Assembly (NCBI GenBank): GCA_003223515.1
Contig: QHVI01000014.1
Location: 62,001 to 126,000, forward strand
Origin: Candidatus Angelobacter sp. Gp1-AA117
Lineage (GTDB): Bacteria; Acidobacteriota; Terriglobia; Terriglobales; Acidobacteriaceae
DNA: 64,000 bases
Direction: 5' to 3'
In this document: piece by piece, positions 9,601-56,493 of the stretch
Layout of the letters: every line of letters begins with the position of its first letter
Position numbering within the stretch: position 1 is the first letter of the stretch
Notes under the pieces: model-generated
Seen by the model: the letters and a program-made list of their open reading frames with translations, nothing else
The model's database searches: none
What the model was told of the DNA's origin: nothing
Program-made: the position numbers and the translations under genes

Positions 9601-12600
9601 CGTGCCAGGTAAGCCTGTGACAAATCTCTCGCCAATGGCCCCAGCGACCAGCCGTCACCGGCAATATGGTGCAAGACCATCAGCAACACATGGTCTTGTG
9701 CCGATAACCGGAAGAGCCACACGCGCAATGGAACCTCACGCGTAAGATCTATGGCAAGCGCGGCAGCACGCGCCACGCGCTGCTTCAGCTCGCTCTCAGC
9801 TACTTCTTCAACCGGCAATAATGAAGGTGCTTCTTCTGCTGTAAGTATTTTCTGGAATGGAGTTCCATCCTGCTCAGGAAAGATGGTGCGCAGGCTCTCA
9901 TGGCGCTCTATTACATCAGCCCAGGCTGCTTCCATAGCCGCGACATTCAATTCTCCCTGGAAGCGAAGAGCCATCGAGATGTTGTAAGTGGCGCTGGGCC
10001 CTTCCAGCCGGTATAAAAACCACAGCCGTTCCTGGGCATAGGACAACGGCACCCGCTCCGGCCGAACCATGCGTGTGAGCGGCGCCCGCGCCTGGCCGCT
10101 TCGACGCAGGCGAGCGGCAAGTTGCGCTGGAGTGGGAGCCTCAAAGAGTGCGCGCACATCCAACTCTACTTTCAGCATCTCGCGCACCCGGCTGATCACG
10201 CTCATTACGATCAGCGAATGTCCCCCGAGGACAAAAAAATTGTCATTACGGCCTACGCGCCCGACCGACAGCACCTCAGCAAAAATATTGCAGAGGACTT
10301 CCTCTTCCGGCGTCTGTGCAGAAAGATACGCTTCGCCCTGATGATCGGGAGCGGGCAGAGCACGCCGGTTCACCTTACCGTTGGGAGTAAGCGGCAGCTC
10401 CTGCAAAGAAACAAAGATCGAAGGCACCATGTACTCAGGCACCCTCTCCGCCATCTTGCAACGCAGATCAGATGGAGAAGGAAGCGCCTCGTCTGCGGGA
10501 ACAAGATAGGCAACCAGTTGCCGTCCTCCTGCTCCAAGTTCATGTGCGGCAACCACCGCCTGTTTGACTCCGGCTATCTCCTTGAGCGCAGCCTCGATCT
10601 CTCCCACTTCCACGCGCTGTCCGCGAATCTTCACCTGCTGGTCAGCGCGGCCCATGTACTCCAGCGTGCCGTCATTGCGCCAGCGCCCCAGATCGCCAAT
10701 GCGATACATCCTTGAACCCGGAGCGCCGAATGGATTCGCGACAAAACGCTCGGCCGTCAGAGCCGGCCGCTTGAAATATCCTCGCGCCAGTCCTGCACCA
10801 GCCACATAAACCTCACCCACCGCTCCCATCGGAGTCAGGGCCAGATTTCTATCGAGAATGTAGACCTGGGCATAATCAACGGGTTTGCCCACCGGCATGG
10901 GTTCTGAAACTTTCTGGGTGTCGATCTCCGCCCAGCTTGCGTCTGAAGCCACTTCGGAAGAGCCGTAAAAATTCACCAACCTGGCATGAGGCATCGCCTT
11001 GGCGAATAACACTGCCAGGTCGGAAGGCAGTGCCTCGCCGCTGTTGATCACGGTATGAACGCCGGCCAGAAGTCTGCTGAGTTCCGGTTCGGTATGGATG
11101 ATATGGCGCAGCAGAAACGGCACCAGGATGATGCGGCCAACTTTGTATCGTTCCAGCGCGTTCACCAGCCTGGTCGAATCTTTCGCCAGGTCTTCAGGAA
11201 AGATGACCAGCAAATGACCGCGCAGCAGCGGGCCAAAGATTTCAGGCACCGAATCAATAAAACATATAGAAGTTTTCTGGCAGCAGACCTCACCGGGTGC
11301 AAAAGGAAGCGCGCGCCAGCCCCAGTGCAACCGGTCAATAAGGGCCTGGTGAGTTCCCATTACACCTTTGGGCTTGCCGGTGGAACCGGAAGTGTAGATC
11401 ACATACGCAGGATGCAGAGGCCGCAGAGATGCAACCCGCTCGGCATCTGTCAGGTTATGACTGGGTTGCTTCTCCAGGGTGGCTTGTGTTTCCGATTCAT
11501 CCAGCGCAATGACTCTGATTTGCTGCGGCAGCCGCTCTCGCAGACGCCGCGAACTAAGCACTACACGCGGAGCGGCATCCTCCACCATGTATCCAATCCG
11601 CGCCTGCGGATACTCCGGATCAAGAGGAAGGTAAGCGCCCCCGGCTTTCACCACCGCAAGCATGGCCACCACCATGGGAATAGAACGGTCCATGCATATG
11701 CCCACCACACTTTCCGGTCCGACGCTCAAACCGATGAGCATACGCGCCAATGCATTGGCCCGCGCATTCAGGCCGGCATAAGTAACGGATTCTTCACCGC
11801 AAACCAGCGCAACCGCATTCGGTGTGCGCTCCACCGGCTGCTCGAACAACTGCGGCAGCATGCCTTCGTGAGTGGAATAGTCTTTTCTGTTGAAATCTTC
11901 CAGCAGTGTTTGGCGTTCACCGTGGTCAAGAATCTCAAACCTGTGCAGAGGGGTGCGTGCATCAGCGGCCGCCTGTTCCAAAAGCCGGATCAGTCGCTTG
12001 CCCAGGGTTTGCACAGTAGCGCCATCCAGCAAATCAATGCGGTACTCGAAGAAGATGTGAACGTTCTTAACGTGATGGATCTTCAGGGTGAGTGGATAGT
12101 GAGTAAAGTCGCAGCCCTCGGCGTGGCTGATGCGCATGCGGGCAATCGGCTGCGCAAACTCCCGCCGGTCCAGAGGATAATTTTCAAAGACCACCAGCGT
12201 ATCGAAGAGTTCACCCAGCCCGGCTACCCGCTGTATTTCTGCCAGTGAGAGATACTCATGCGCTCTGAGTCTCGATTGCTGGTCCTGCAAGCGCGTGAGC
12301 ACGTCCAGCAATACGTCGCCGGGGCGCAACTGTACGCGGATCGGCACAGTGTTGATGAACAATCCCACCATGGTCTCGATGCCGGGTATTTCAGGCGGAC
12401 GTCCGGAAACTGTGCCGCCGAATACCACGTCTTCCTGGTTGGTGAGTCTGCCGAGCAGAATCGCCCATGTTCCCTGCACCAGGGTATTCAGAGTGAGATT
12501 GTGTTTGCGAACCAATGAGATCAGGGCGTGGCTCAAATCATCCGCAAGATCGAATCTCACTTCCTGCGGAATGTCCTTGGCATGTCCGGGAACTGCTGCA

Positions 12601-15600
12601 ACCATGCGCGTGGGCTCCTGCAGACCCTCCAGCGCTTCACGCCATACGACGCGCGAGACTTCCCGGTCCGTCAAGCGGAGCCATGCAAGATAATCACGAT
12701 AAGGTGTAACCCGCAGAAGCCCGCTGGTGTCTCCATTGCGCTCATATACAGTCAGCATTTCACGCATGAATACCGGTGAAGACCAGCCATCCATCAGGAT
12801 GTGGTGATAGGTAAGCGCAAACCTGTGCTGCTGGTGCCCCGTACGCACCAGCGTGAACCGGAACAGGGGCGGAAATGCCAGATTGAATCGCGACTTTTCA
12901 TCTTCATGCATCAACGCCGCGAGCTGTTGTTTCTGCTCCGCTTCACTGATGGCCGAAAGATCGATCCTGCGCCACGGAAGCGTAAATTCCGCTGGAATAA
13001 ACTGCGCGGGATGACTCACGCCCTCATGTTCAAAACCCGCGCGCAGATTGGCATGTCGCCGCAGCACTGTGCGAATCGCCGATTGCAGCGCCTCTTCATC
13101 CACATCGCCCTCCAGAGTCAGCACCAACTGGACGTTGTAGATATCAAGCGCGTTGGCCTCATATGTCGCATAGACGGAGTGGAACAGCAGTCCTTCCTGC
13201 ACGGTGGAGAGCGGCAAAATATCATCCAGTTTGCCGTGTTTGTTTTGCAGGCGATTGATCTCCATCTGGGAAAGCTGCACCAGCGGCACATCAGCAGGCG
13301 TAAGCCCGCGCGTTCCCCGCTGGTCTGCGCTGGCCACCAGCACTTCGAGCGCCTGGAACCACTCCCGTGCCAACTCCTGCACCGCATCTTGTTGCAGCAA
13401 CGCTGGAGCCCATGACCACGTGGCTTTCAACTCCGGACCGCTGGAGCGGTCAAGAGTAAGGGCATTCAGTTCGAGTCCATGCGCCAGGCCAAGATCAGGA
13501 TTGGCCCCTGCGCCCAGCACCACCGAAGCGCTCCAGTCGCTTTCCTCAGAAGTGGCAAAACGGCCAAGATAGTTGAAGAGAAGTTCCGGCTTTGGAAGAG
13601 CGGCCAGAGCGGGAGCAGTTTCCGGATTCAGATAGCGCAGCAGGCCATAACCCAATCCGTTGTCGGGCACAGCGCGCAGTTGCTCCCGGACAAGATTGAT
13701 CATCTGCGCAGGCGCATCGCCGCCGCGCCCTACCTCTTCCAGATTGACCGCATTCAATTCGAGGCGCACTGGAAACAGGGTGGTGAACCATCCCACGGTG
13801 CGCGATAGATCAACATCAGGAAAGATTTCTTCGCGGCCATGTTTTTCGAGATCAAGCAGCAGAACCTTGCCATGCTGCTGTCCACGGCGCTGCCGCCATT
13901 TGAGAACGGCGAGCGCCAGTGCCGCCACCAGCACCTCGTTGATTCTTGCCCCAAAAGCCGCAGGCACAGAGTTCAGCAGAGGCATGGTGATCCTGGCCGG
14001 AAGAGTCAAGGTGAGATGGCGGACGATAGCAACGGTATCGCGTTGCGGATCGAATGGCTTTTCAAAGAAGCTAGTTTCAGTACGCGCCAGAGTTGCTTTC
14101 CAGAATTCCAGTTCCGGAAACCGGTCAGGATTCCGCGCTTCAATGGCGAGCCGTTCAGCCCATTGCCGGAATGAAGTGCCGCAGGGCGCCAGCACCGGCG
14201 TCCGCGCAGCGGTGATCGCCTGCCATGCCGCTGCCAAGTCAGGCAGCAGAATTTGCCATGAGACAGCATCCACCGCCAGGTGGTGAATCATGAGCAGCAA
14301 TCGCCCTGCATGTTCTAGTCCATTGTCAAACCAGACTGCCTGCACTGCACTTCCGGTCTGGGGTGAGAGCCGCAGTTCTGCTGCGCGCGCCTCTTCCAGC
14401 ATCAGCGCATTCCGTGCCTCTTCATTCAAGCCTTCCACGCTGCAACGCCGGAAACAACCTTCTGCTCGCACCGACCCTGCTGGACCAATTTCTAATTTGC
14501 GGCCTGCATCTTCCAGCCACAGTCTCAGGCGCAGCGCATCATGATGATCAAGAACAGCCTGCAATGCAGCCGTCAGAGTAGCTTCATTCAGACCACCAGG
14601 AACCCGCAACAGCATTGACTGGCTGAACCTCTGAATAGAACCGCCTCGTTCCATGAGCCAGTGCATGATCGGAGTCAGCGGCAGGGCTCCTATACCTGTA
14701 TCGCGAGCCGTCAAAAGATGCTGGTTCAATGGCCGCGCCACCGCCGCCAGAGCCTCCATGGTCTGCTGCTGGAAAACATCGCGCGAGGTAATCACCAGCC
14801 CGGCGCGTCGCATGCGGCTCACTAACTGGATGGAGAGGATGCTGTCTCCCCCCAGGTTGAAAAAGTTGTCGCCCAGACCTATCTCAGGAATGCCCAGAAT
14901 CTCGATCAACAGCGCACCCAGAATCTTTTCTTCGTGTGTGCGTGGCGGCCTCCGCACCGGGGCGGCGCTGAAGTCGGGCGCGGGCAGCGCTTTGCGGTCC
15001 AGCTTTCCGCTGGAAGTTATAGGAAGAGCATCCAGCACCATCAATGCCGGGGGCACCATGTAATCAGGAAGGCTTTGCGCCAGCCGGTCGCGCAATGCTG
15101 CCGTATTGAGCTTTGTCTCGGGACTCGCCACCACGTATCCCGCCAGCCGCCTGTCTCCCGGACGGTCTTCGCGAACCACCACCACAGCAAGCGCCACGCC
15201 CTCACACCGTCTGAGCGCGGCTTCAATCTCTCCCAGTTCCACGCGATATCCGCGCAGCTTGATCTGCTGGTCCGTGCGTCCAAAGAATTCCAGCGTCCCA
15301 TCGGGCAGATAGCGCACAGTATCGCCGGTGCGATACATCCGTTCTCCGGCCGCGCTGCTGAATGGATTTGGCAGAAACCGCTCGGCGGTGAGGTCACTAC
15401 GATTCAGGTAACCACGCGCCAGCCCTTCACCCGCGAGATAAAGCTCACCTATGGCTCCCAGGGGCGCCGGCTTCATCCATTCATTCAGGATGTAGACCTG
15501 AGTGTTGGCGAGAGGACGCCCGATCGGCACGCTCCACCTCGTCGCATCGCGCTCCAGGAATGCCCACGTTGAATAGGTGGTGTCCTCAGTTGGCCCATAA

Positions 15601-17996
15601 AGGTTGAACACTCTGCGCACTTGAGTGCTTTCATAGAGGTCACGGACCAAATCTGCAGGTAAAGCCTCTCCTGCCAGGTTCACCACGTGCACCGAATCAG
15701 GCACGCTTCGGGTGCGCACCAACTCTCTCATGCTCGATGGAACGGTATTGATGAGCTTGACCTGGTCCCGGTTGGGCATTTCTCCTAAAGCTAAAGCGTT
15801 CTCGGCCACCAGCACCGCGCCGCCGCAACTTAGAGGCACGAAAATTTCAAAGATGGAGAGATCGAAACAGATCGAAGTTGAGGCGAGCACCCCGGCTAGT
15901 TCTTCCTGTGAGAATACGTCCTGCGCCCAATTCACCAATATTGCCGGGCTCCGATGGCGAATCATCGCGCCTTTGGGTTTGCCGGTAGAGCCTGAGGTGT
16001 AAATCACGTAAGCCAGATTGTCTGCCGTGACCTGTGAATATGGATTCTCCGTGCTCTCCCGGGCAATTTCATTCCACTGGCTGTCTATCTTTACAACTCT
16101 GCCGGTGAAAGACGGCAGTTGCTCCAGTAAATGCTCCTGCGCCAGCAGCACCTGTGCCTCGGAATCGTTCAGCATCAGCGCAACCCGCTCGGCAGGATAA
16201 TTGGGATCCAGAGGAACATAAGCTCCTCCAGCTTTCAGCACTGCCATCACGGCAACCACCATATCCAGGCCACGCGTAATGCAGATCGCTACCCGCACTT
16301 CGGGACCGATGCCCAGCTTGGTCAAATGATGGGCCAACTGGTTCGAGCGCTGGTTGAGTTCCTGATAACTCAATGACTGCTGGCCATAAATGATGGCCAG
16401 CGCTTCAGGGCTGCGCTGCGCCTGCAACTCAAAAAACTCGTGCAGGCAGTTGCCGGGAATCGCCGCGCCGGTCTGGTTCCACTGCACCAGAAGCTGTCGG
16501 CGCTCCTCTGTAGTGAGCAGGTTTAAATCAGAAAGATGCCTGTTCGGGTCAGCCACCACTTCTCTGAGCACCAGATCAAAGCGGTCCATCATGCGCTCGA
16601 TGCTGGAATGGAAGAACAGCTCCGGGATGTAATCGAAAAACACCGCCGCCAGAGTATCGATGTCATTGACGGCAAAATTCAGGTCCAGCCATGCCGAGCG
16701 GTAGTGGGCCTTCAACCGCTCCACTTTCAGGGGCACCCCTTGCAGATCAATCGCTCCAGAGTCATTTGCAAATGCGAATGAAGTTTCTACCAGCGGTGCG
16801 CGGCTGGGATCGCGGGCAATGTGCAGCTTGTTCAGTATGGTCTCAAACGGCACATCGGCATTGGCCATGGCCTCCAGCATGGTTGACCGGGTGCGCCGCA
16901 GCAGTTCGCTGAAAGACGGATTGCCGGAGAGATCGAGGCGTACCACAACCGTATTCAGGAAATAGCCGACCAGAAGCTGCGTTTCCTGGTGTTTTCTGTT
17001 GCTGATGGGGACGGCAATAGCAATATCGCTTTTTCCCGTCTGCTGCCAGAGAAGCACGGCATAAGCGGCGATAAATGCCGTGAACCGCGTCACATTGGCG
17101 GCGAAGCTAAGCTGCTTGAACGGTTCCCATACCGGATCAGGAATAAACCGGTAGACGCGCTCGCCCCTGAAGCTGCGAAACTGAGGACGTGGGAGGTCGG
17201 TCGGAAGATCCAGCAGCGCGACGTCGGCAAGCTGCTTCATCCAGTATTCCGTCTGCCGCTCAGAAGCGCCGGAGTTCATCCATTCATGCAGCCATAAGGC
17301 GAAGTCGCCATATTGGACCGGCGGCTCCGGCAAGGGCGAGGGCAATCCGCGCGAGAATGCCGCATAGATTGCGAAGATCTCTTTTTCCAGAAGACTGTAA
17401 GAGACAAAATCGGTGACCAGGTGATGAACAATAATGATGATTGCGTGCTCATCTTCGCTGGCGCGATACACCTTGCTCCGCAGCAGCGGCCCTTGAAGAA
17501 GATCAAACGGACGTGAAATCTCCGCATTCACCAGCGCCAGGATGTGTTCCTGTCGTTTCTCTTCCGGAACCTCCGAAATATCTTCCAGTTCCAGCGGAAG
17601 GCGCAGTTCAGGAAGGACTTCGGCTTGCGGTCGGCCTTCAACCTCCGGAAAATACGTGCGCAGGTTCTCATTGCGGCGGACCAGTTCATCCAGCGCCCTT
17701 TGCATGGCCGCGATATCTAAATGTCCGCGCAGCAGGAATGCATGAGAGTGATTGAAATAATAGGTTCCCGGATCAACCTGCTGCACCAGCCACATATGTT
17801 CCTGCTCGGGAGTGATCGGGTATTCAAGCCCGGGCCGTCTCCGCAAGCCAGGCTCCGCCTGTACCGCGGTTGCTCCGCTCTTCATCCGTTGCGCCAGCTT
17901 TTCCCGCTGGGCCGGAGTGAGCTTTGCGATTCGCGCCTTCAGCGCCTCGCTCAACAACTCCGTTTTGTTCTGGACATCGCTGCTCATGTAATCCAA
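3687..17996 (-). CDS. ORF-E: four-module nonribosomal peptide synthetase, C-A(Ala)-PCP-E / C-A(beta-Ala-like)-PCP / C-A(Gly)-PCP / C-A(beta-Ala-like)-PCP
   Basis: 4769 aa intact ORF. Four [15 protein letters not shown]3 cores; carrier motifs [41 protein letters not shown] domain ([36 protein letters not shown]) after module 1, followed by a DCL-like C domain ([15 protein letters not shown]). Codes read by hand: DLFNNALTY (Ala), IDPIISFSD, DILQFGLIW (Gly), LDAVVSFAD. Confidence 0.96.
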
Positions 17997-31221: not shown

Positions 31222-32826
31222 ATGCTATCCAGCGGTAGTTGCTCTTTCCAGGATCACATACTCGGCCTGTTTTCGAATTCTGCGGAAGCTGAAGCGAATT
31301 ACGCTGCTGCCCGCCAGCGCCTTCTCGCCGCTTTGGCGAACTGGCGAAACCAAACTGCCAATAGTTTGTCACCAGACCCCGATTCTTCATCTCCTACGAA
31401 TTTGCTGGATTACTTCGAACAGCTTGAACGAACAGTCATTCGCAACTCCGCTGACCTGGCATCGCCATTATGTATGGGGCATATGAGCGGCATTTATCCG
31501 CGCTTCATGGCCCTGATAGGCGAATTGATTCTGTCTCTGAACCAAAACCTTGTGAAACGGGAAGCCTCGCCGGTGCTGACTCAGGTTGAACTTGAAACTC
31601 TGGCGGCGCTGCATCGGCTGATTTACAACCAGACCAGTGGCTTTTATCTCCGTCATGTTCAGGATCACGCCAGTACTCTGGGACTGGTCACCTCTGGCGG
31701 TACTCTCGGCAATCTCACTGCGCTTTGGATTGCTCGCAATCTCAGCTTCATGCCCCGCCATGATTTTCCCGGAATCGAAGCCGCCGGTATGACGCGTGCT
31801 CTTGAGCATTACGGTTATGAAAGCGCTGTGATTGTCGGCTCAAGATTGATGCATTACTCCATGGAGAAGGCCGCGGCCTTGCTTGGCCTGGGCACTCAGA
31901 ATGTTTTGCTGCTGCCCGTGGATCGTGACAATCGGCTTGAAACATCTGCGCTCCAGGATTGCATCTCCGATTGCGCCACGCATCGCAAACGAATCATTGC
32001 GGTGCTTGGCATTGCCGGGACCACCGAGTGCGGCAGCATCGATCCATTGCAAACAATTGCCGAAATCGCCCGAGCCGGCAACATCTTCTTTCACGTGGAT
32101 GCCGCCTGGGGTGGTCCGCTTTTGTTTTCTCAGCAACACCGCCGCTTATTGTCTGGGATTGAGCAGGCTGACTCCGTAGTTTTAGATGGTCACAAGCAGA
32201 TGTACCTCCCTGTGGCCGCCAGCGCGCTTCTTCTACGTGATCCCACTGCGGCACGCGCCATTGAAAAGCACAGTCATTACATGCTTCAGGAAGGCTCCGG
32301 TGACCTGGGCCGCCGTTCATTGGAAGGCTCACGCAATGGAGCCGCTTTGTTTTTTCATGCTGCCTTGCGCCTGATCGGTGAACAGGGATATGGGTTTCTC
32401 ATGGAAGAGAATCTGCGCAAATCCCGCATCATGGCTGAACTCGTTCGAATGCGGCCCGAATTTGAGCTGCTGTCCGAATCGCAGACCAATATTCTTCTCT
32501 ATCGTGGACTGCCCCTGGCTCTTCGCGGCCGCCGTATGTCTCCCTTTTCCAGTGAAGAGCATGCCGTGATCAATGCCTTCAATGAACGCCTGCAGAAGCA
32601 GCAATCACAGGCAGGCCGTACCTTTGTGTCGCGCACTACCATCGCTCTCGGAAATGCCTCCCCGGCGGCTCCTCTGGTGGCCTTGCGTGCAGTCATCACC
32701 AATCCGCTGCTCCAGCAACACCACATGCAGAGCGTGCTCGAAGATCAGGTTTCCATCATGGCAGAACTTGAGAATCAGGCTGATCGTGAAACCTCAGGCT
32801 GCTTCGCCGTCCACCCTGTCCGTTGA
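31222..32826 (+). CDS. panP: Group II PLP-dependent decarboxylase, PanP-like (aspartate 1-decarboxylase, beta-alanine forming)
   Basis: 534 aa. PLP-lysine motif ADSVVLDGHKQMYLPVAASALLLRDP; HVDAAWGGPLLFS; LVTSGGTLGNLTALWIARN; QEGSGDLGRRSLEGSRNGAALFFHAALRLIG, matching from memory the PanP pattern GSKDLGSHTLEGSR. Substrate not proven by sequence alone. Confidence 0.8.
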   Translation: MLSSGSCSFQDHILGLFSNSAEAEANYAAARQRLLAALANWRNQTANSLSPDPDSSSPTNLLDYFEQLERTVIRNSADLASPLCMGHMSGIYPRFMALIGELILSLNQNLVKREASPVLTQVELETLAALHRLIYNQTSGFYLRHVQDHASTLGLVTSGGTLGNLTALWIARNLSFMPRHDFPGIEAAGMTRALEHYGYESAVIVGSRLMHYSMEKAAALLGLGTQNVLLLPVDRDNRLETSALQDCISDCATHRKRIIAVLGIAGTTECGSIDPLQTIAEIARAGNIFFHVDAAWGGPLLFSQQHRRLLSGIEQADSVVLDGHKQMYLPVAASALLLRDPTAARAIEKHSHYMLQEGSGDLGRRSLEGSRNGAALFFHAALRLIGEQGYGFLMEENLRKSRIMAELVRMRPEFELLSESQTNILLYRGLPLALRGRRMSPFSSEEHAVINAFNERLQKQQSQAGRTFVSRTTIALGNASPAAPLVALRAVITNPLLQQHHMQSVLEDQVSIMAELENQADRETSGCFAVHPVR

Positions 32827-37315: not shown

Positions 37316-39148
37316 GTGGTTTCCAATGTTTTTTTCGCTATGCCTGAAGTAACGAAACCCGCCACGCCGCGATGCCTTCATGGCTTGTTCCAGGAGCAGG
37401 CTGAACGCACTCCGGACGCCCGCGCTGTGGTGGCGCAGGATGGCGAGTTCAGTTATGCGGAGCTTGACCGCCGCACAAATCAGCTTGCCAATTACCTGCA
37501 ATCCCTTGGTATTGGCCCGGAGAGACGGGCAGGAATTGCGCTTCCACGCTCGGCGGAAATGATTGTGGCCGCGCTTGCGATATTGAAGGCCGGCGGAACT
37601 TATGTCCCCATCGATCCTGCATATCCGCTTCAGCGATTCAAGTATCTGGCGGAAAATTCCGGAGTGTCTGTCCTTCTGACCCATCGGGCCGTACCGGAAG
37701 GAGTGAACACTCAGCAAATTAAGGTTGTTCCGCTGGAGAGCCACTGGAGCAAAGCGGCGACAATGCCTCAACACGCTCCCCCATCCCGTGTTGAGGATGC
37801 TAGCCTCGCATACATCATCTATACATCCGGTTCAACTGGGAAACCCAAGGGCGTAATGGTCAGCCACGAAAATGTGGTGCGCTCGACTGAGGCGCGCAGA
37901 AGCTATTACACCATCTGGCCCGAGCGGTTCCTGGTGCTCTCATCATTCTCCTTTGACAGCTCTGTAGCGAGTATTTTCTGGACGCTTGCAGCCGGAGGAG
38001 AATTATGGCTTCCGCCGGAAGGCACCCAGCAGAACATCGCCAGGATCAGGGAATTTGTTCGCCGTGGCCGGATTACTCACCTGCTCGCGCTGCCTTCCTT
38101 ATATAGGGCAGTGCTGCTGCACGCAGGAAGCAACGGACTTGAATCACTCCGAACGGTGATTGTCGCCGGTGAAGCTTGTGCTGTTGACCTGCCCGCGGAG
38201 CACTTTCGCCATCTACCTGAAACTTTGCTGTTCAATGAGTACGGCCCGACTGAGGCAAGCGTGTGGTGTACGGTGTACCGGACCACTCCCGTAGCTCAAT
38301 CCAGGTCTGTCCCGATTGGCAAGCCAATCTCAAGCACCGGGATACACATTCTCGACGGTCAGATGCAATCCGTGTCTCCCATGGAGGCAGGAGAGATTTA
38401 CATCGGCGGCCCACAGGTGGCCCGCGGATATCTGGGCCGTCCGGATATCACGGCAGAGCGATTCGTGCCCAATGTGTTTTCCGAAATGCCCGGGGCACGG
38501 CTGTACCGGACAGGGGACATTGGCAGGCACACTGCGGATGGCAACATCGAATTTCTTGGACGCGCGGACCAGCAGGTAAAAATCCGCGGATATCGTATCG
38601 AACTGGCTGAGATTGAAGCCGCATTGCTTGAGCACCCCGGAATTCGAGAGGCGGCAGTGATCAGCAGGAAAGAGCGGCTCGTCGCCTATGTTGTAGCCAA
38701 ACCCGGACCAGAGATTGATGCTGCCGATTTGCGCCGCTTCCTCCGCCAGCACCTGCCGGAATACATGACGCCCGCAACCTACATTACGCTTGACTCTCTG
38801 CCGTTGAATGCCAATGGCAAATTGGATCGCCAGGCGCTTCCCGATCCCAGGCCGGAAGAATCACAAAATACTTATGCTGCTCCCCGAAACGCTATTGAAC
38901 ACCGCCTTGCACAAATCTGGGCAGAGCTGCTGGGGGTCAAGCAAGTGGGAATCCATGATAATTTTTTCGATCTGGGGGGCGACTCAATCCTCGGCCTGCA
39001 GATGGTGGCCCGTACTAATCAGGCAGGCATCCGCCTCAATTTGACCCAGATGATTGACCAGCCAACCATCGCCGAAATTGCTGCCTCGTTTCACGCAGCC
39101 GGCTTTGGCAATGCGGAAATTGCATCTGATACGAGCTCTACGCCATAG
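37316..39148 (+). CDS. Stand-alone adenylation-carrier didomain (A-PCP)
   Basis: 610 aa. No C domain; A domain [64 protein letters not shown], giving code DSALIAEVW; PCP NFFDLGGDSILGLQMVAR. Confidence 0.92.
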   Translation: MVSNVFFAMPEVTKPATPRCLHGLFQEQAERTPDARAVVAQDGEFSYAELDRRTNQLANYLQSLGIGPERRAGIALPRSAEMIVAALAILKAGGTYVPIDPAYPLQRFKYLAENSGVSVLLTHRAVPEGVNTQQIKVVPLESHWSKAATMPQHAPPSRVEDASLAYIIYTSGSTGKPKGVMVSHENVVRSTEARRSYYTIWPERFLVLSSFSFDSSVASIFWTLAAGGELWLPPEGTQQNIARIREFVRRGRITHLLALPSLYRAVLLHAGSNGLESLRTVIVAGEACAVDLPAEHFRHLPETLLFNEYGPTEASVWCTVYRTTPVAQSRSVPIGKPISSTGIHILDGQMQSVSPMEAGEIYIGGPQVARGYLGRPDITAERFVPNVFSEMPGARLYRTGDIGRHTADGNIEFLGRADQQVKIRGYRIELAEIEAALLEHPGIREAAVISRKERLVAYVVAKPGPEIDAADLRRFLRQHLPEYMTPATYITLDSLPLNANGKLDRQALPDPRPEESQNTYAAPRNAIEHRLAQIWAELLGVKQVGIHDNFFDLGGDSILGLQMVARTNQAGIRLNLTQMIDQPTIAEIAASFHAAGFGNAEIASDTSSTP

Positions 39149-39514: not shown

Positions 39515-41116
39515 TCAATCACCGGCTGCGGCATCTCCTTCAGCGGGTTCCATCCAGGAAAGGCCGTTGGATGATGAAATAAGGCCACCATCGAATACGG
39601 GCGCTTCGCGCCTGTGTGTCCCGGTCTGGGCCTGGCGGATCAGGCCTACAATGCCTCTCCTGAAATCGCGAATAAAGTCTTTGGGGTTAAATTTCGCAAT
39701 GTCAAATTTACTGATATCGAAGTTTCTGTCATCAATGGGATTTGCCGCTTCCTCGTAGGCAGTCCGGAACAAGTCTCCTACTCCCACATGGGCCTGGAAG
39801 AATTCGGCTGCATTTGAGAACAGAGGCTCGCCGGTGAAAGAGGTCCCGGAGACCAGGCGAATGAAAGCATCATTGGCTCGTTCTTCTGTATTCAGCACCT
39901 TGCGGGCGCTCCAGAAATACGAGTCCATGTCTTTGTCCATGTCATAGAAAGCAACCAGAAACTGATAGAAGTTGCTGAACTCGCGGCGGTAGCGCTCCTC
40001 GAATTCGTTGAATGAACGTTCTTCCCCAATTTCGCCTCGCAGGCAGCTATTCACTGAGCGTGCTGCAAGCAAAGCAGAATAGGTAGCCAGATGGACGCCG
40101 GAAGAAAACACGGGATCGACAAAGCACGCGGCATCGCCAATCAGCAGTGCCCCCGGCGCCCAAAAACGCGTGTTGCAATACGAATAGTCCTTGCGGATGC
40201 GGTACTGCCCGTAAGGCCCTTCAATAATCCGGGTTGCAGAGCTCAGGAAATCCTTCACCATAACGGTGGAGTTGAGGAAGTGCTGCATGGCGGCTTCAGG
40301 CCCGGCCTTCAGCCTGTCGGCGTGCTCGCGTGCAACCACCGCGCCCACGCTGGTAAGTTCGCTGCTGAGAGGAATGTACCAGCACCAGCCTTCGCTGAAT
40401 GCTTCAGAGAGGATATTGCCGGAGTATGGGGGAGGCAGCCGCTTGCCATCTTTGAAATAGCAAAAAAGGGCCACGTTCTGAAAAAATTTGGAATAGATGC
40501 GTTCCCCGACTGTGCGGGACAGAGTAGTGGTGTTTCCGGAAGCATCAATCACGTAGCGAGCTTTTGCAGTCTTCTTTTGTCCCTGGTCATCATTGAAGCT
40601 GACGCCCACCACCCGGCCCCCTTCTTCCAGAACTTCCGTGACCGTATGCTGCTCGCGGACATCAACGCCCTTCCTGCGGGCGTTGTTCAGAAGAATGTGA
40701 TCGAACTTCATCCGCTCTACCTGATAAGCGAACGCTTGGCTGCCGGGAATCATGGAAGAAGGTCCAAAGGTAAAGCTCCAGGGTTCAGGATGCCTTCCCC
40801 AACGGTAGGTGCCGCCCAGTTTGTAGGTGAAATTGGCTTTGGCAAGCTCTTCGCTCACTCCCAGCATGACGCAGATGCCATTAATAGTCGCTGGGAGAAG
40901 AGATTCGCCTATCTGGTGCCGAGGAAATTTTTCCCGCTCCAGCAGGAGCACCTTGTTTCCTTCCATGGCAATGAAGCTGGCCACGGTTGATCCGGCGGGA
41001 CCGCCACCTGTAACGATTACATCGAAATTTTCCGTACTATTTTTGCCGTTGTTCATGGGACACCTGTATAGATGAATCGAACGATTTAGAGCAGTTTCAT
41101 AGTTGGTGTAGACCAA
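39515..41116 (-). CDS. Flavin-dependent halogenase (CndH/CmlS-like group)
   Basis: 533 aa. FAD motif VIVTGGGPAGSTVASF; halogenase signature WxWxIP (GWCWYIPL); FxxPxxSxG (FVDPVFSSG); conserved Lys context YKLGGTYRWG; GDAACFVDP. Likely true start is the internal ATG at 41056 (MNNGKNSTENFD). Confidence 0.88.
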   Translation of the reverse strand: MVYTNYETALNRSIHLYRCPMNNGKNSTENFDVIVTGGGPAGSTVASFIAMEGNKVLLLEREKFPRHQIGESLLPATINGICVMLGVSEELAKANFTYKLGGTYRWGRHPEPWSFTFGPSSMIPGSQAFAYQVERMKFDHILLNNARRKGVDVREQHTVTEVLEEGGRVVGVSFNDDQGQKKTAKARYVIDASGNTTTLSRTVGERIYSKFFQNVALFCYFKDGKRLPPPYSGNILSEAFSEGWCWYIPLSSELTSVGAVVAREHADRLKAGPEAAMQHFLNSTVMVKDFLSSATRIIEGPYGQYRIRKDYSYCNTRFWAPGALLIGDAACFVDPVFSSGVHLATYSALLAARSVNSCLRGEIGEERSFNEFEERYRREFSNFYQFLVAFYDMDKDMDSYFWSARKVLNTEERANDAFIRLVSGTSFTGEPLFSNAAEFFQAHVGVGDLFRTAYEEAANPIDDRNFDISKFDIAKFNPKDFIRDFRRGIVGLIRQAQTGTHRREAPVFDGGLISSSNGLSWMEPAEGDAAAGD

Positions 41117-41234
41117 CCACAGCCAGATAAGTACCAGGCATGAATTTCAGTCGTGCCCGATAAGTCCTTAATAGAATCCTGGGCTTCAGCCCCTGCATTT
41201 TTTGTCGTGCTGCTGGAGTTGGTCTACACCATCT
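41101..41234. repeat. REP/MITE-like intergenic element with terminal inverted repeats and internal hairpins
   Basis: TGGTGTAGACCAAC at 41104-41117 is the exact reverse complement of GTTGGTCTACACCA at 41218-41231; near-perfect match extends further at the outer side. Inside: perfect hairpin GGGCTTCAGCCC and near-palindrome GGCATGAATTTCAGTCGTGCC. Confidence 0.65.
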
Positions 41235-41241
41235 CTGGCAA

Positions 41242-41985
41242 TCAGGCGATGGCGATTGAGTGTTCCGTCACCGCGGACATGGCGTGATAAAGTCCCTGCC
41301 AGAAGTTATGAATAAGCTGAAGGTGGCGATGATAGCCGTCGGTCATCCTCGCCAGACTTTCTTCGCTTGTGGCATAACGCTTTACGGCTTTCAGCGACTC
41401 TTCCTTGTGCTCTTTTTCGGTGGCCCCGATGTGAGCATAGAAATACTCGCAGGCCTCATGAAATTCGTCGGGATCGTTCCACAGGGGAAGATAATTGCGC
41501 GCGCCGTCATAAAGCTTGCGCAGCATGGTATAGGCCTGCCATTCGAGCGCAAGCTGGGCCCCGAAGGACATCTGCCGGTCACGATAAAGGTACTGCTCCC
41601 CTTCGATCAGTTCGCGGGTGGCGGGCAGCAGTTCAACCGTGTTTTGCAGGCGCTCCCAATTCAGCTCGCCTTCATGGCCCATTTTTCGCGCCAGCTCTTT
41701 GAAGAAATCATTGAGCAGCACAGAGTGGACTTTCACCGGATTGCCATATCCCATTTCCGAATAGAGCGTTTTTACGTACTCGGTTTTAGCATCGATATCA
41801 TCGGTGGTGACCAGCAGAATAGAGAGCGCGTCCGGAAAGGACTTTACCCATTCGCCGTAATTTCTGGCAAAGATTGCCAGCTCATCGATGGTGAGCTCTC
41901 TTGTCATCCATTCGCGGTAAAACTCATTATTCAAAGCGGAATGGTTCGTTATGTCCGTCAGCAAAACTTCGAGATTTCTAGTCAT
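41242..41985 (-). CDS. Heme-oxygenase-like / TenA-PqqC-superfamily protein, putative non-heme metal oxygenase (HDO-like)
   Basis: 247 aa all-helical protein. FARNYGEWVKSFPDALSILL, FGAQLALEWQAYTMLRKLYDGA, and C-terminal FYAHIGATEKEHKEESLKAV (E-x2-H) resemble CADD/BesC-type proteins. Metal ligands not verified. Confidence 0.7.
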   Translation of the reverse strand: MTRNLEVLLTDITNHSALNNEFYREWMTRELTIDELAIFARNYGEWVKSFPDALSILLVTTDDIDAKTEYVKTLYSEMGYGNPVKVHSVLLNDFFKELARKMGHEGELNWERLQNTVELLPATRELIEGEQYLYRDRQMSFGAQLALEWQAYTMLRKLYDGARNYLPLWNDPDEFHEACEYFYAHIGATEKEHKEESLKAVKRYATSEESLARMTDGYHRHLQLIHNFWQGLYHAMSAVTEHSIAIA

Positions 41986-42055: not shown

Positions 42056-45000
42056 TCATTCCTGAATCAGTGAATCATCCTCGTCTGAAGCCAGGGCGAG
42101 TTCGAGCAGCAATTTGGCATTGCGCAGGAGCCGCCCGGGGTCGTTTTCGTTTTCCAGCATCGCGCGCGCCAGGCCGTCAATGGCAGGGCTTTCAAAGATC
42201 CTGCGCACCGGCAGCTCTACATGAAGCGCTTCACGGATACGGGAGGAAATCTGGGTGGCCAGCAGAGAATGGCCGCCCAGTTCAAAGAAGTCGTCGAAAA
42301 TGCCAATACGCTCCACCCGCAGTACCTCGGAGAAGATAATGGCCAGCACCTCCTCCAGCTCTGTTCGCGGAGCGACATAGCCCCGGCTCGACTCCGGCTT
42401 GCCGGGTTCAGGTAAGCTGCGGCGGTCAATTTTTCCGGAGGGCGTGAGCGGGAACGCGTCCAGGGGCACAAACACGGCAGGCACCATGTGGTCCGGAAGC
42501 CTTTCATGGAGGGAGTCGCGCAGTTCTTTACTGCTGACCGTCTGGCCCGGATGGAATACAACATAGGCAATCAAACGGCCTTCCTGGCCATCCTTGTGCA
42601 GGACCACGGCCACGTCACGAACGCCGGGATGATGTTTGAGTTCTACTTCAATCTCGCCCAACTCAACGCGCATGCCGCGAATCTTCACTTGCAGGTCATT
42701 GCGGCCGAGGAATTCCAGGTTTCCGTCTGCCTGATAGCTAACCAGATCTCCGGTTTTGTACATTCGCGATCCCGGTTTATTGCTGAAGGGGTCAGGCAGG
42801 AACCTCTCCGCAGTAAGGTCAGTCCGCTTCAAATATCCGTGGGCAAGACAGAGGCCACTGATGTACAGCTCTCCGGGCACGCCGATAGGCACAGGCTGGA
42901 GGTAACTATCGAGCACATAAGTCTTAGTGTTGCTGATGGGACGTCCGAGCGGAGGAAGCGCAGGCCAATCTTCCACCTGCTCAGGCAGCGGGAATGAGGT
43001 CATGACATGCGTTTCTGATGGGCCATAGTGGTTGTATAGGCGACAGTCTTTGAGCTGGCGGAAAAGCCTGGTCATTGCCGGCGTGATCTGGAGTTGCTCG
43101 CCGCCAGCCATAAATTCGCGCATCGAAGCAAATATTTCAGGCTGATCACAGAATTCCTCCGCCAGTTTTTGCAGGACGACGGGCGGCAGATGAAATCTCT
43201 CCACACCATGTTGCTTCACAAAGTGTCCTAAAGCCGGAAGCTCGAGACGAAGCGCCTCAGATGGAAGCACCAGCACTCCGCCTGACATGAAGGTGGAAAA
43301 GATCTCCTGAAAACTGATGTCGAAATTCAAGGAAGCAAACTGGAGAGTACGCTGGGACTGGCGCAATGAATTCTGGTGCCATGTAACCAGATTCACCACC
43401 ACGCGATGAGGCACTACCACACCTTTGGGCCGGCCGGTTGAGCCTGAAGTATAGATGACATACATCCAGTCCTCCGGGGTAACGGCGACTTGTGGAGCGT
43501 CTTCCGGTTCTTTGCTGATCGTCTGCCATTCCGAATCCAGGCAAACCAGCCGCATGCCGGAAGCCGGGAGCATAGCTGCCTGGGCCTCCTGAGAGACAAC
43601 AACAGGTGCTCCGCTGTCTTCAAGCATGAAGGCGAGACGCTCCTTTGGATAGGCCGGATCAAGAGGAATGCAGGCTGCGCCACATTTCAAAATGCCCAGC
43701 ACAGCGACGATCATTTCCGGGGACCGATCCATGAAGATGCCGACGAACTCACCTGGCCGCGCGCCCAATGATGAGAGATAATGCGCCAGTTGATTGGCGC
43801 GGGCGTTCAACTGGGCATACGTGAGTTCCTGGTTCTCAAAGACGAGCGCAGTTGCATTCGGAGCATGCCGTACCTGGGCCTCAAAGAGCTGGTGCGCAGG
43901 AAGCTGCGGAGAGTCTGCTTCGGTTGCGTTCCACTCTTCCAGCATCTGGTAACGTTCGTGGCGGGTGAGCAATGGCAAGCCGGAGATGAGCTGGTCGGGA
44001 TTGGCCACAATGGCAGAGAGCAGAGTGAGCAAATGCCCAGACATGCGCTCGACGGTTTCGCGGGTAAAAAGGTCAACGTTATATTCCAGGGTGCCTAATA
44101 TCTCGGGGCCGTGGTCCCTGGCAAACAGAGTCAAGTCGAACTTTGCCGACTTGTTATCGCAGTCCAGCAAAGTTGCAGATAAGCCAGGCATCTCGTCCGT
44201 CGGCGGAATCGTAGGCTCAAAATTGAAGATGACCTGCACTAAGGGGCTGTGACTGAGGCTGCGCTCCGGATGAAATTGTTCAACCAGATATTCGAACGGA
44301 AGGTCCTGGTGAGCATAGGCTCCGAGCGCCGCTTCCTTTACCAGCGCGAGAACTTCGCGGAAGGAGAGCTCGCCAGAGACACTTGTCCGCATGGGAAGAG
44401 TATTCGCAAAAAATCCAATCAGCCCTTCCAGCTCTTTGCGGTTGCGGTTGGCAATGGGCGATCCCACGATGATCTCCTGCTGGCCGGTATAGCGATGGAG
44501 CAGGACGTTGAAGGCGGCCAGCAGCACCATGAACATGGTGGCCTGCTGGGTGCGGCAAAATGCTTTCAGCGACTGCGAAAGGGCAGGTGAAAACGGAAAG
44601 GTGAAATTAGCGCCGCCATAAGTCTGCACGGCAGGACGGGGAAAGTCCGTGGGCAGTTCCAGCACAGCGGGTTTCGCGCCAAGATGCTGTTTCCAATAGG
44701 CAAGCTGTTGCTCCAGCACTTCGCCCTGCAACCACTTCCGCTGCCACGCCGCAAAATCCGCGTACTGGATGGGAAGGGGCGGGAGATCAGGCGCGCGTCC
44801 GCCGGCGTACAGCGCAACTGCCTCACGCACGAGAACATTCATGGACCATCCATCGGTCACGATGTGGTGCATTGCCAGAAGCAAAACATGTTCCTCAGCC
44901 GCCATGCGAACCAGGGTGATGCGCAATAGCGGCCCCTTTTTCAAATCGAAGGGCCGGCATATCTCATCACTAAATAAAGCGTGGAACTGCTCCTGCCGCT

Positions 45001-45394
45001 CTGGCTGCCCCAGATGCGCAAGGTCGATCCGGCGAATAGGGATTGAATGCTGCTGGCCAATGATCTGCACCGGCTGGCCTTCACTAAGTTCAAAGGTGGT
45101 GCGCAAGGCCTCATGGCGCCAAACCAGGTGATTGAACGCTTCCTGTAAGGCAGAGACATTCAGGTTGCCGCGCAGGGAAACCGGCGTGAGCAGGTTGTAG
45201 ACAAAACTGGCAGGCTCAAACTGATCAAAGAACCACAGCCGCTGTTGTGAAAATGATAATGGCGCAGGGCCACTTTCCTGGCGGCGTGGAATTTTGTCCT
45301 CCGCGGATGCCATGCCTTCTTTGCTTAGCAGGGCATCCAGAATCGCCTTCTTCCTGGGCGAAAGCTGGAATTTGTTGTGGATAGTACTGCTCAT
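42056..45394 (-). CDS. ORF-C: single-module nonribosomal peptide synthetase, C-A(Pro-like clade)-PCP
   Basis: 1112 aa. C domain HHIVTDGWSMNVLVREA; A domain [72 protein letters not shown], giving code DIQHMGHVM; PCP DFFELGGHSLLATQISSRI. Confidence 0.95.
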   Translation of the reverse strand: MSSTIHNKFQLSPRKKAILDALLSKEGMASAEDKIPRRQESGPAPLSFSQQRLWFFDQFEPASFVYNLLTPVSLRGNLNVSALQEAFNHLVWRHEALRTTFELSEGQPVQIIGQQHSIPIRRIDLAHLGQPERQEQFHALFSDEICRPFDLKKGPLLRITLVRMAAEEHVLLLAMHHIVTDGWSMNVLVREAVALYAGGRAPDLPPLPIQYADFAAWQRKWLQGEVLEQQLAYWKQHLGAKPAVLELPTDFPRPAVQTYGGANFTFPFSPALSQSLKAFCRTQQATMFMVLLAAFNVLLHRYTGQQEIIVGSPIANRNRKELEGLIGFFANTLPMRTSVSGELSFREVLALVKEAALGAYAHQDLPFEYLVEQFHPERSLSHSPLVQVIFNFEPTIPPTDEMPGLSATLLDCDNKSAKFDLTLFARDHGPEILGTLEYNVDLFTRETVERMSGHLLTLLSAIVANPDQLISGLPLLTRHERYQMLEEWNATEADSPQLPAHQLFEAQVRHAPNATALVFENQELTYAQLNARANQLAHYLSSLGARPGEFVGIFMDRSPEMIVAVLGILKCGAACIPLDPAYPKERLAFMLEDSGAPVVVSQEAQAAMLPASGMRLVCLDSEWQTISKEPEDAPQVAVTPEDWMYVIYTSGSTGRPKGVVVPHRVVVNLVTWHQNSLRQSQRTLQFASLNFDISFQEIFSTFMSGGVLVLPSEALRLELPALGHFVKQHGVERFHLPPVVLQKLAEEFCDQPEIFASMREFMAGGEQLQITPAMTRLFRQLKDCRLYNHYGPSETHVMTSFPLPEQVEDWPALPPLGRPISNTKTYVLDSYLQPVPIGVPGELYISGLCLAHGYLKRTDLTAERFLPDPFSNKPGSRMYKTGDLVSYQADGNLEFLGRNDLQVKIRGMRVELGEIEVELKHHPGVRDVAVVLHKDGQEGRLIAYVVFHPGQTVSSKELRDSLHERLPDHMVPAVFVPLDAFPLTPSGKIDRRSLPEPGKPESSRGYVAPRTELEEVLAIIFSEVLRVERIGIFDDFFELGGHSLLATQISSRIREALHVELPVRRIFESPAIDGLARAMLENENDPGRLLRNAKLLLELALASDEDDSLIQE

Positions 45395-55185: not shown

Positions 55186-55256
55186 TACCCGTTTATCTGT
55201 GTCATCTGTGTTGATCTGTAGTGAATATCTTCTTTGCGTCCTTTGCGGTTAATCGT
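55186..55256. repeat. Short interspersed intergenic repeat (ATCTGTGTCATCTGTG / GCGTCCTTTGCGGTTAA)
   Basis: Sequence TTTATCTGTGTCATCTGTGTTGATCTGTAGTGAATATCTTCTTTGCGTCCTTTGCGGTTAA between ORF-B and the PLP enzyme gene; shares its core with the 18.0 kb element. Confidence 0.5.
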
Positions 55257-56493
55257 CTCTTATGGTTTTCTCCAAAACGTCACACAAAATATCTACATGC
55301 TCGAAATCTATGAAGCATGGAAAGGCGACCCGGAGCCAGGGCGACTGGGGATCAATGTTCATGACCAGCGCATGAACGGAATTGCTCTGCAAATAGGCAG
55401 AAAGTTCCGTGGCTGAAAACTTCCAGCGCCTTCCCGGAGAAGGGCAGATGGCGAGCAGCAGCGTGATATCCACACCGCTGTCTTCACCCACCACCGTAAA
55501 TAGGGCTTGAATGCGGTCTACAAATCTGCGGCGCAATCTTCTTGAGTGCTCCCAGAGCTTTTCCATGCCAAGCTTTTTCAGGAAACGCAAGCTGCTTACC
55601 AGACCGGCAAGCATGTGAACGTTTACAGTTGTGGCGGGAAGAGTGCTGTTCCAGGCATCGTAAGGGACCAGTTGGTCCGGTGGCGGATTATAGGAGACGA
55701 TGACCCCGCAGGGTTCCGGCGCCAGCAGCCATTTATGCGCGCTGAATACGTAAGACGCGCATTTCGCAATGCCTCTGGGATTCTGGTTATTGCCGGCAGC
55801 GTGCGCTCCATCGAGAATAATTTTCAGCGCCAATGGGCTGGTGAATTGGTAAATACGGTCTATGATCCGCTCAACGGGAATGACTGCGCCGGTTGCATAA
55901 TTCACCTCGCTCAGAACCAGGGCCGCCGTTTTGGTATCTGCAACGGCTTCCGCAATCTGGCTGATGAGATCATCTTCCTGCTCCTGCCAACATCGAAAGA
56001 AGTGCTGCGGCGCGCAATGAAGCTGCCACAGTTCGGCCCCGGAGATGGAGACGAACCATTTTGCTACCTCGATCACTGAAGGATGTTCAAAGGGAGAGAT
56101 AATAATTCTGCGCGGCTGGCCAGTGCGCGCCAGGGCAACCTCCACCGCCCGGCTGGTGCCTCCCACAAATTCAATGCGGCAACCGCCCGCCTCAGCAGGA
56201 TCGAGCAGCAATTCCTTGATGAGTGTGCGGGCCTCTTCCGCCAACTCCAGCAGAAGGCCGGTGGCCCGCGCGCTGCCGGGGACGTACTCCTGATAGAGAT
56301 TGACAAGCTGATTGGTTGCATTCCGAATCCAGCGGATCTCAGGCGCTACAGCAAGGCCGTAAAAATTCAGCTTGTCGCCATTGGTGACGGGAGCAAATAC
56401 GTGCAGAGCTCCAGGTTCCCTGTAGTCAGCCAACAGCACATCTTCTGCGGGAAGTCGGGTCATAAAGCTGCTCCTACGATTTTGAAACTGCAT
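55249..56493 (-). CDS. Class V aminotransferase-fold PLP enzyme (isopenicillin-N-epimerase / cysteine-desulfurase-like)
   Basis: 414 aa. PLP-lysine region DGAHAAGNNQNPRGIAKCASYVFSAHKWLLAPEPCGVIV; LSEVNYATGAVIPV; FEHPSVIEVAKWF. Start overlaps the ORF-A 3' end; alternative start MTRLPAED at 56463 removes the overlap. Confidence 0.85.
   Translation of the reverse strand: MQFQNRRSSFMTRLPAEDVLLADYREPGALHVFAPVTNGDKLNFYGLAVAPEIRWIRNATNQLVNLYQEYVPGSARATGLLLELAEEARTLIKELLLDPAEAGGCRIEFVGGTSRAVEVALARTGQPRRIIISPFEHPSVIEVAKWFVSISGAELWQLHCAPQHFFRCWQEQEDDLISQIAEAVADTKTAALVLSEVNYATGAVIPVERIIDRIYQFTSPLALKIILDGAHAAGNNQNPRGIAKCASYVFSAHKWLLAPEPCGVIVSYNPPPDQLVPYDAWNSTLPATTVNVHMLAGLVSSLRFLKKLGMEKLWEHSRRLRRRFVDRIQALFTVVGEDSGVDITLLLAICPSPGRRWKFSATELSAYLQSNSVHALVMNIDPQSPWLRVAFPCFIDFEHVDILCDVLEKTIRDD

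Follow-up and report, generated by a model that had tools for sequence, protein, structure and literature searches.

A CndH-type flavin halogenase and a variant heme-oxygenase-like oxidase encoded side by side in an acidobacterial NRPS cluster

We analysed a 64,000-nucleotide stretch of a draft acidobacterial genome (the window; positions 62001-126000 on a contig of 150.9 kb, genome 6.48 Mb), in which a CndH-type flavin-dependent halogenase is encoded beside a member of a variant branch of the heme-oxygenase-like di-iron oxidases (HDOs). A sequence-only reading had taken the two neighbours as a pair that acts together on one chlorinated and oxidised residue. The enzyme identities and the NRPS setting that it proposed were borne out; the functional pairing was not. 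We tentatively favour two independent tailoring enzymes, a halogenase that would act on an electron-rich ring and an HDO that would make or modify a proline-type residue for the NRPS module upstream of it, a reading to which we give a little less than an even chance.

The gene neighbourhood and the halogenase

The genes discussed below are arranged as follows:

37316..39148, plus strand: stand-alone A-PCP didomain, A-domain code DSA(L/A)IAEVWK for histidine (profile matches and code extraction; His per PMC12283262)
39161..39508, plus strand: CsaA-like protein with a tRNA-binding domain; its gene separates those of the A-PCP and the halogenase
39515..41056, minus strand: FAD-dependent halogenase, CndH/SgcC3-type, 513 aa (PF04820, 232 bits)
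41057..41241, no strand: HDO-halogenase spacer, 185 bp, with a 13 bp perfect inverted repeat
41242..41985, minus strand: HDO, 247 aa, of the H-x4-E-x2-H clade
42056..45394, minus strand: C-A-PCP module of an NRPS, immediately 5' of the HDO gene; A-domain code DIQHMGHVMK, of proline type with a changed pocket

The region is a single large lipopeptide-type NRPS cluster of roughly 82 kb, and both genes lie within it, as had been proposed. Rightward of the window there is an NRPS opening with a fatty-acyl-AMP-ligase-like domain and then a glycosyltransferase; leftward there are further NRPS genes, an MbtH-like protein, a MacB-type permease and a radical SAM protein. The cluster also encodes a PLP decarboxylase (31222-32826, plus strand) that resembles the aspartate 1-decarboxylase PanP (478 bits, under the NCBIfam cut-off) and is perhaps a supplier of beta-alanine, and, between NRPS genes, a class V aminotransferase-like protein (55249-56493, minus strand) with weak similarity to cysteine desulfurases and PvdN. 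Two A domains of the NRPS at 3687-17996 (minus strand) have the shifted codes IDPIISFSDK and LDAVVSFADK, in which Asp235 is absent, suggesting non-amino-acid substrates. Other contigs of the same genome (L001, L002, L021 and L022) encode two tryptophan-type halogenases and two more HDO-like proteins with the usual ligand spacing.

The halogenase gene was correctly placed directly downstream of the HDO gene by the sequence-only reading: it is the next gene on the same strand, 185 bp past the HDO stop codon. The arms of the inverted repeat in this spacer, TGGTGTAGACCAA at 41104-41116 and its complement at 41219-41231, are separated by 102 bp; an operator or the remnant of an element is possible. 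For the start of the halogenase (stop at 39515) we preferred the ATG at 41056 over a TTG at 41116; an AGGTG Shine-Dalgarno-like stretch is found just 5' of the ATG.

Among solved structures, the best match to the halogenase was CndH (3e1t; phmmer E = 4.6e-190, alignment nearly full length), a match far past chance level, as is that of the HDO to PF14518. By BLAST, the identity to CndH is 56% over 510 residues, including the C-terminal region. It is 51% over 501 residues to the C-1027 plasmid halogenase (L043, which we call SgcC3 from its position in the C-1027 locus, not from annotation), 52% to an acidobacterial halogenase of genome G348 and 36% to CmlS; the two tryptophan halogenases of the same genome gave partial matches only, at about 22-28%. 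The FAD-binding motif GxGxxG is present near the N-terminus as GGGPAG. Three further features were located by alignment:

40820..40822, minus strand: catalytic lysine K79 (aligned Lys in CndH, CmlS, SgcC3, 8zop and the tryptophan halogenases of the same genome)
40370..40387, minus strand: WxWxIP motif, as WCWYIP, residues 224-229
40097..40123, minus strand: FxxPxxSxG motif, as FVDPVFSSG, residues 312-320

The two signatures from which a flavin halogenase had been proposed are thus present together with K79. By its sequence the enzyme is a CndH-type (variant B) flavin-dependent halogenase, and as such an ordinary further member of a known family. Grouping with non-halogenating monooxygenases would have spoken against this. 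The pairwise identities to CndH and SgcC3 stand clear of the others (56% and 51%, against 36% or less), but the CndH group was not a well-supported branch in the trees, which suffered from partial sequences and long branches and had no close non-halogenating outgroup. The group assignment was therefore made from pairwise identities and motifs.

CndH and SgcC3 have been described as acting on carrier-bound tyrosine-type substrates, and SgcC3 as chlorinating a beta-tyrosyl carrier protein (PMC8407142, PMC6165268); by analogy with these relatives, a carrier-bound substrate is plausible here. It is possible, if on balance improbable, that a tyrosine-type residue, the known substrate of the clade, is chlorinated after loading by an A domain without a tyrosine-looking code, with the HDO unrelated. 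The kinship of the halogenase with both CndH and SgcC3 argues for this, but none of the 20 A-domain codes of the window and flanks is tyrosine-like when set against known tyrosine codes. One of the 20 carries a histidine code, that of the A-PCP, and no other looks aromatic when compared with known codes. This code was DSAAIAEVWK by pairwise extraction (gapped) and DSALIAEVWK by joint alignment, the differing position hinging on the placement of one gap; codes of the DSALIAEVWK type are listed as His (PMC12283262). The 'free-standing PCP' of the sequence-only reading does exist, in the form of the C-terminal part of this didomain.

With two independent enzymes, as we prefer, the ring chlorinated by the halogenase would be electron-rich and probably carrier-bound, and the nearest candidate carrier would be the histidine-loading A-PCP; 0.4 kb separates the end of its gene from that of the halogenase. 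Chlorination of carrier-bound histidine would, if true, be notable.

The company of the HDO and the question of a pair

Ten other genomes, four acidobacterial and six proteobacterial, encode homologues of the HDO with 46-72% identity, and a homologue with 38% identity is encoded on a Streptomyces plasmid. At the four other acidobacterial loci (L027, L028, L029 and L030) the HDO comes after NRPS genes and is followed in each case by a class I/II PLP enzyme (HisC/CobD/GntC-like), with a CsaA-like gene in between at L027. The latter (L027:10893-11237), beside the HDO there, is the counterpart of the CsaA-like gene of the window (78% identity). A search of the window genome for the PLP enzyme at E<=1e-10 came up empty, so a different pathway may operate here.

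The clusters of the window, L027 and L028 each have a histidine-type A domain (DSALIAEVWK) and a D[VI]QHMGHVxK domain (DIQHMGHVMK, DVQHMGHVVK and DVQHMGHVIK, respectively), and an A-domain fragment at L030 has the same H..VV end. At L027 and L028 the histidine and D[VI]QHMGHVxK modules are consecutive, with one more module between them and the HDO. In the window, the HDO is immediately preceded by the D[VI]QHMGHVxK module, and the separate A-PCP on the opposite strand supplies the histidine domain. The exact codes DIQHMGHV and DVQHMGHV were not found in a literature search. Of 71 proline domains, 59 have both Val236 and Gln239 (PMC12283262), and DVQFIAHV is among the codes known for proline (PMC2866473). 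Outside the HDO clusters, the closest such domain that we found belongs to genome G021; it is 57% identical to the L027 domain and reads DVQFIAHVVK. No HDO of the H-x4-E-x2-H clade was found in G021. Compared with this domain, from the one HDO-less genome used, and with the known Pro code, the HDO-linked A domains look like proline domains with three pocket positions changed, although proline-type codes are weak predictors after pocket residues change.

Proline also figures at the proteobacterial loci. A proline-3-hydroxylase-like oxygenase accompanies the HDO at three of them (L031, L032 and L033, the last by resemblance to L031), and a Xaa-Pro-dipeptidase-like amidohydrolase and an aromatic-acid-type MFS transporter do so at two (L034 and L035); the proline-linked NCBIfam matches of these neighbours are all under curated cut-offs. 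NRPS genes were absent at the proteobacterial loci examined, so the HDO substrate there is probably either a free amino acid or a small peptide. A further protein encoded beside the HDO and the hydroxylase (L031:11686-12855) has histidine boxes as in membrane di-iron desaturases and matched no Pfam family.

From the A-domain codes and the proteobacterial neighbours we tie the HDO, with moderate confidence, to a proline-like substrate or product; its link seems to be with a proline-like building block, not with chlorination. Using O2, the HDO would form a proline-type amino acid or modify one, either free or tethered, and the DIQHMGHVMK module directly upstream of the HDO would incorporate the product into the peptide.

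No halogenase of this type was found beside the HDO homologues at any locus, in flanks of up to 10 kb. Nine of the ten HDO-homologue genomes had no halogenase match at E<=1e-30, and in the tenth the match had 35% identity and was elsewhere in the genome. Conversely, neither an HDO nor an NRPS was found in 20 kb around the G348 halogenase, the nearest acidobacterial relative, where there were also no matches to other window proteins, and the annotation around the C-1027 halogenase lists no HDO. With the partner absent at the HDO loci and at those of the halogenase relatives, the adjacency in the window is not a conserved pair, and functional pairing as a conserved trait was rejected. The proposed joint action on one chlorinated, oxidised residue found no support at these loci. 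The partners that recur with the HDO are a histidine A domain and a proline-type A domain with altered pocket.

Because a histidine domain co-occurs with the HDO too, histidine could be the HDO substrate. This permits a version of the pair with the residue named, in which both enzymes would act on the histidine held by the A-PCP and yield a chlorinated, oxidised histidine; we regard it as distinctly unlikely. In its favour are the histidine code of the A-PCP, the presence of that code at L027 and L028 along with the HDO, the short distance to the halogenase gene and the want, judged by known codes, of any other aromatic-looking domain among the 20 of the cluster. However, the halogenase is missing from every HDO homologue locus and, as a close match, from those genomes; CndH and SgcC3 act on tyrosine-type rings (PMC8407142); and the proteobacterial HDO loci examined are without NRPS.

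Fold, metal site and clade of the HDO

The heme-oxygenase-like assignment held. The sole Pfam family of the protein was PF14518 (61.4 bits, against a gathering score of 28.9). Only the CADD and BesC models of NCBIfam were matched, at 45.8 bits against a cut-off of 200 and at 34.2 bits against 500, respectively; these are the closest characterised proteins by sequence, and with both scores far under the curated cut-offs, orthology to either was rejected. The sequence matches also included HrmI; TenA and PqqC were not among them. An AlphaFold model of the 247 aa protein, the check that the sequence-only reading had suggested, reached a pLDDT of 90.7 and a pTM of 0.89 (input: ten homologues). Its best match by Foldseek was BesC (TM 0.74/0.82), followed by CADD and HrmI, with PolF, PqqC, UndA and TenA lower.

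41755..41757, minus strand: metal ligand E77 of the HDO
41725..41727, minus strand: metal ligand H87 of the HDO
41542..41544, minus strand: metal ligand E148 of the HDO
41407..41433, minus strand: H185-IGAT-E190-KE-H193, the last three HDO ligands, with one residue extra

Missing metal ligands had been named as the sign of a TenA/PqqC-like enzyme. By alignment, all six are present, three histidines and three carboxylates (E77, H87, E148, H185, E190 and H193), and they are invariant in 12 of 12 homologues. The last three are spaced H-x4-E-x2-H, not H-x3-[DE]-x2-H as is usual. Loss of the acidic ligand (H-IGA-T-EKE) was considered and rejected, since H, E and H all line up once a single residue is inserted, and in the profile alignment with BesC the gap falls at that point, after the histidine and before the acidic ligand. 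The AlphaFold model shows a helix break at residues 190-191, where its confidence is lower (pLDDT 76-77). Active HDOs do not all space their ligands alike: the residues are H172, D176 and H181 in MboA, which is atypical (PMC13185094), and H172, E176 and H179 in AetD (PMC10654658). We therefore take the extra residue as a clade marker and not as a sign of inactivity. In our reading the protein probably works as a di-iron oxidase. That it is a cofactor-free TenA/PqqC-like enzyme, or metal-dead from the one-residue shift, is very improbable: the unusual spacing and the appearance of PqqC and TenA structures lower in the fold list are offset by six ligands invariant over three phyla, by sequence matches to BesC, CADD and HrmI and not to TenA or PqqC, and by the deviant spacing of the active MboA.

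The H-x4-E-x2-H spacing is fixed in 12 homologues from the Acidobacteriota, the Pseudomonadota and a Streptomyces plasmid, and a branch supported at 98/99 sets these twelve proteins apart from the rest. The 15 other HDO-like proteins collected have H-x3-[DE]-x2-H, and one of them, L014, fits both patterns. The clade is thus a variant branch, uncharacterised, within a known kind of enzyme. Only about a dozen HDOs have been characterised (PMC13108848). They carry out unusual oxidation chemistry, and this clade differs from the others in the metal-binding helix itself. Moreover, the altered pocket of its companion A domain may report the HDO product, which would make the function directly testable. 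A bolder proposal, which we think unlikely, is that the clade is an unrecognised HDO subfamily, with a metal-site geometry of its own, whose product is a new proline-like amino acid (formed e.g. by PolF-like ring closure or ring oxidation), and that acidobacterial NRPS lines recruited it along with a proline A domain remodelled in its pocket (F278H, I299M and A301G) to take up that product.

Relation to characterised enzymes

The halogenase shares with CndH, the chondrochloren halogenase (PDB 3e1t), 56% identity over 510 residues, the catalytic lysine and the WxWxIP and FxxPxxSxG motifs; it differs in its cluster and presumed substrate, the window cluster being without a tyrosine-like A-domain code. 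With SgcC3, the C-1027 halogenase that acts on a beta-tyrosyl carrier protein, it has 51% identity over 501 residues and the motifs in common, but SgcC3 belongs to an enediyne locus in which an HDO is not annotated.

MboA (mangotoxin acetylenase) and PolF (azetidine-forming HDO) are, like the window HDO, enzymes of natural-product pathways, acting on amino acids or peptides (PMC13185094, PMC12614342), and the last ligands of MboA are likewise atypically spaced; PolF, however, is far lower than BesC in the fold search, and MboA is not among the fold matches listed. CADD, the self-sacrificing p-aminobenzoate synthase, has the HDO fold and aligns over the N-terminal half, yet its NCBIfam score is 46 against 200 and its ligand spacing is unlike that of the window HDO. 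BesC, the HDO that fragments 4-chloro-lysine (PDB 7twa), has 22% identity in the fold alignment, a last ligand helix that is one residue shorter and an NCBIfam score of 34 against 500, but it is the best match both by fold and by sequence in the PDB, and its six ligands are alike in type.
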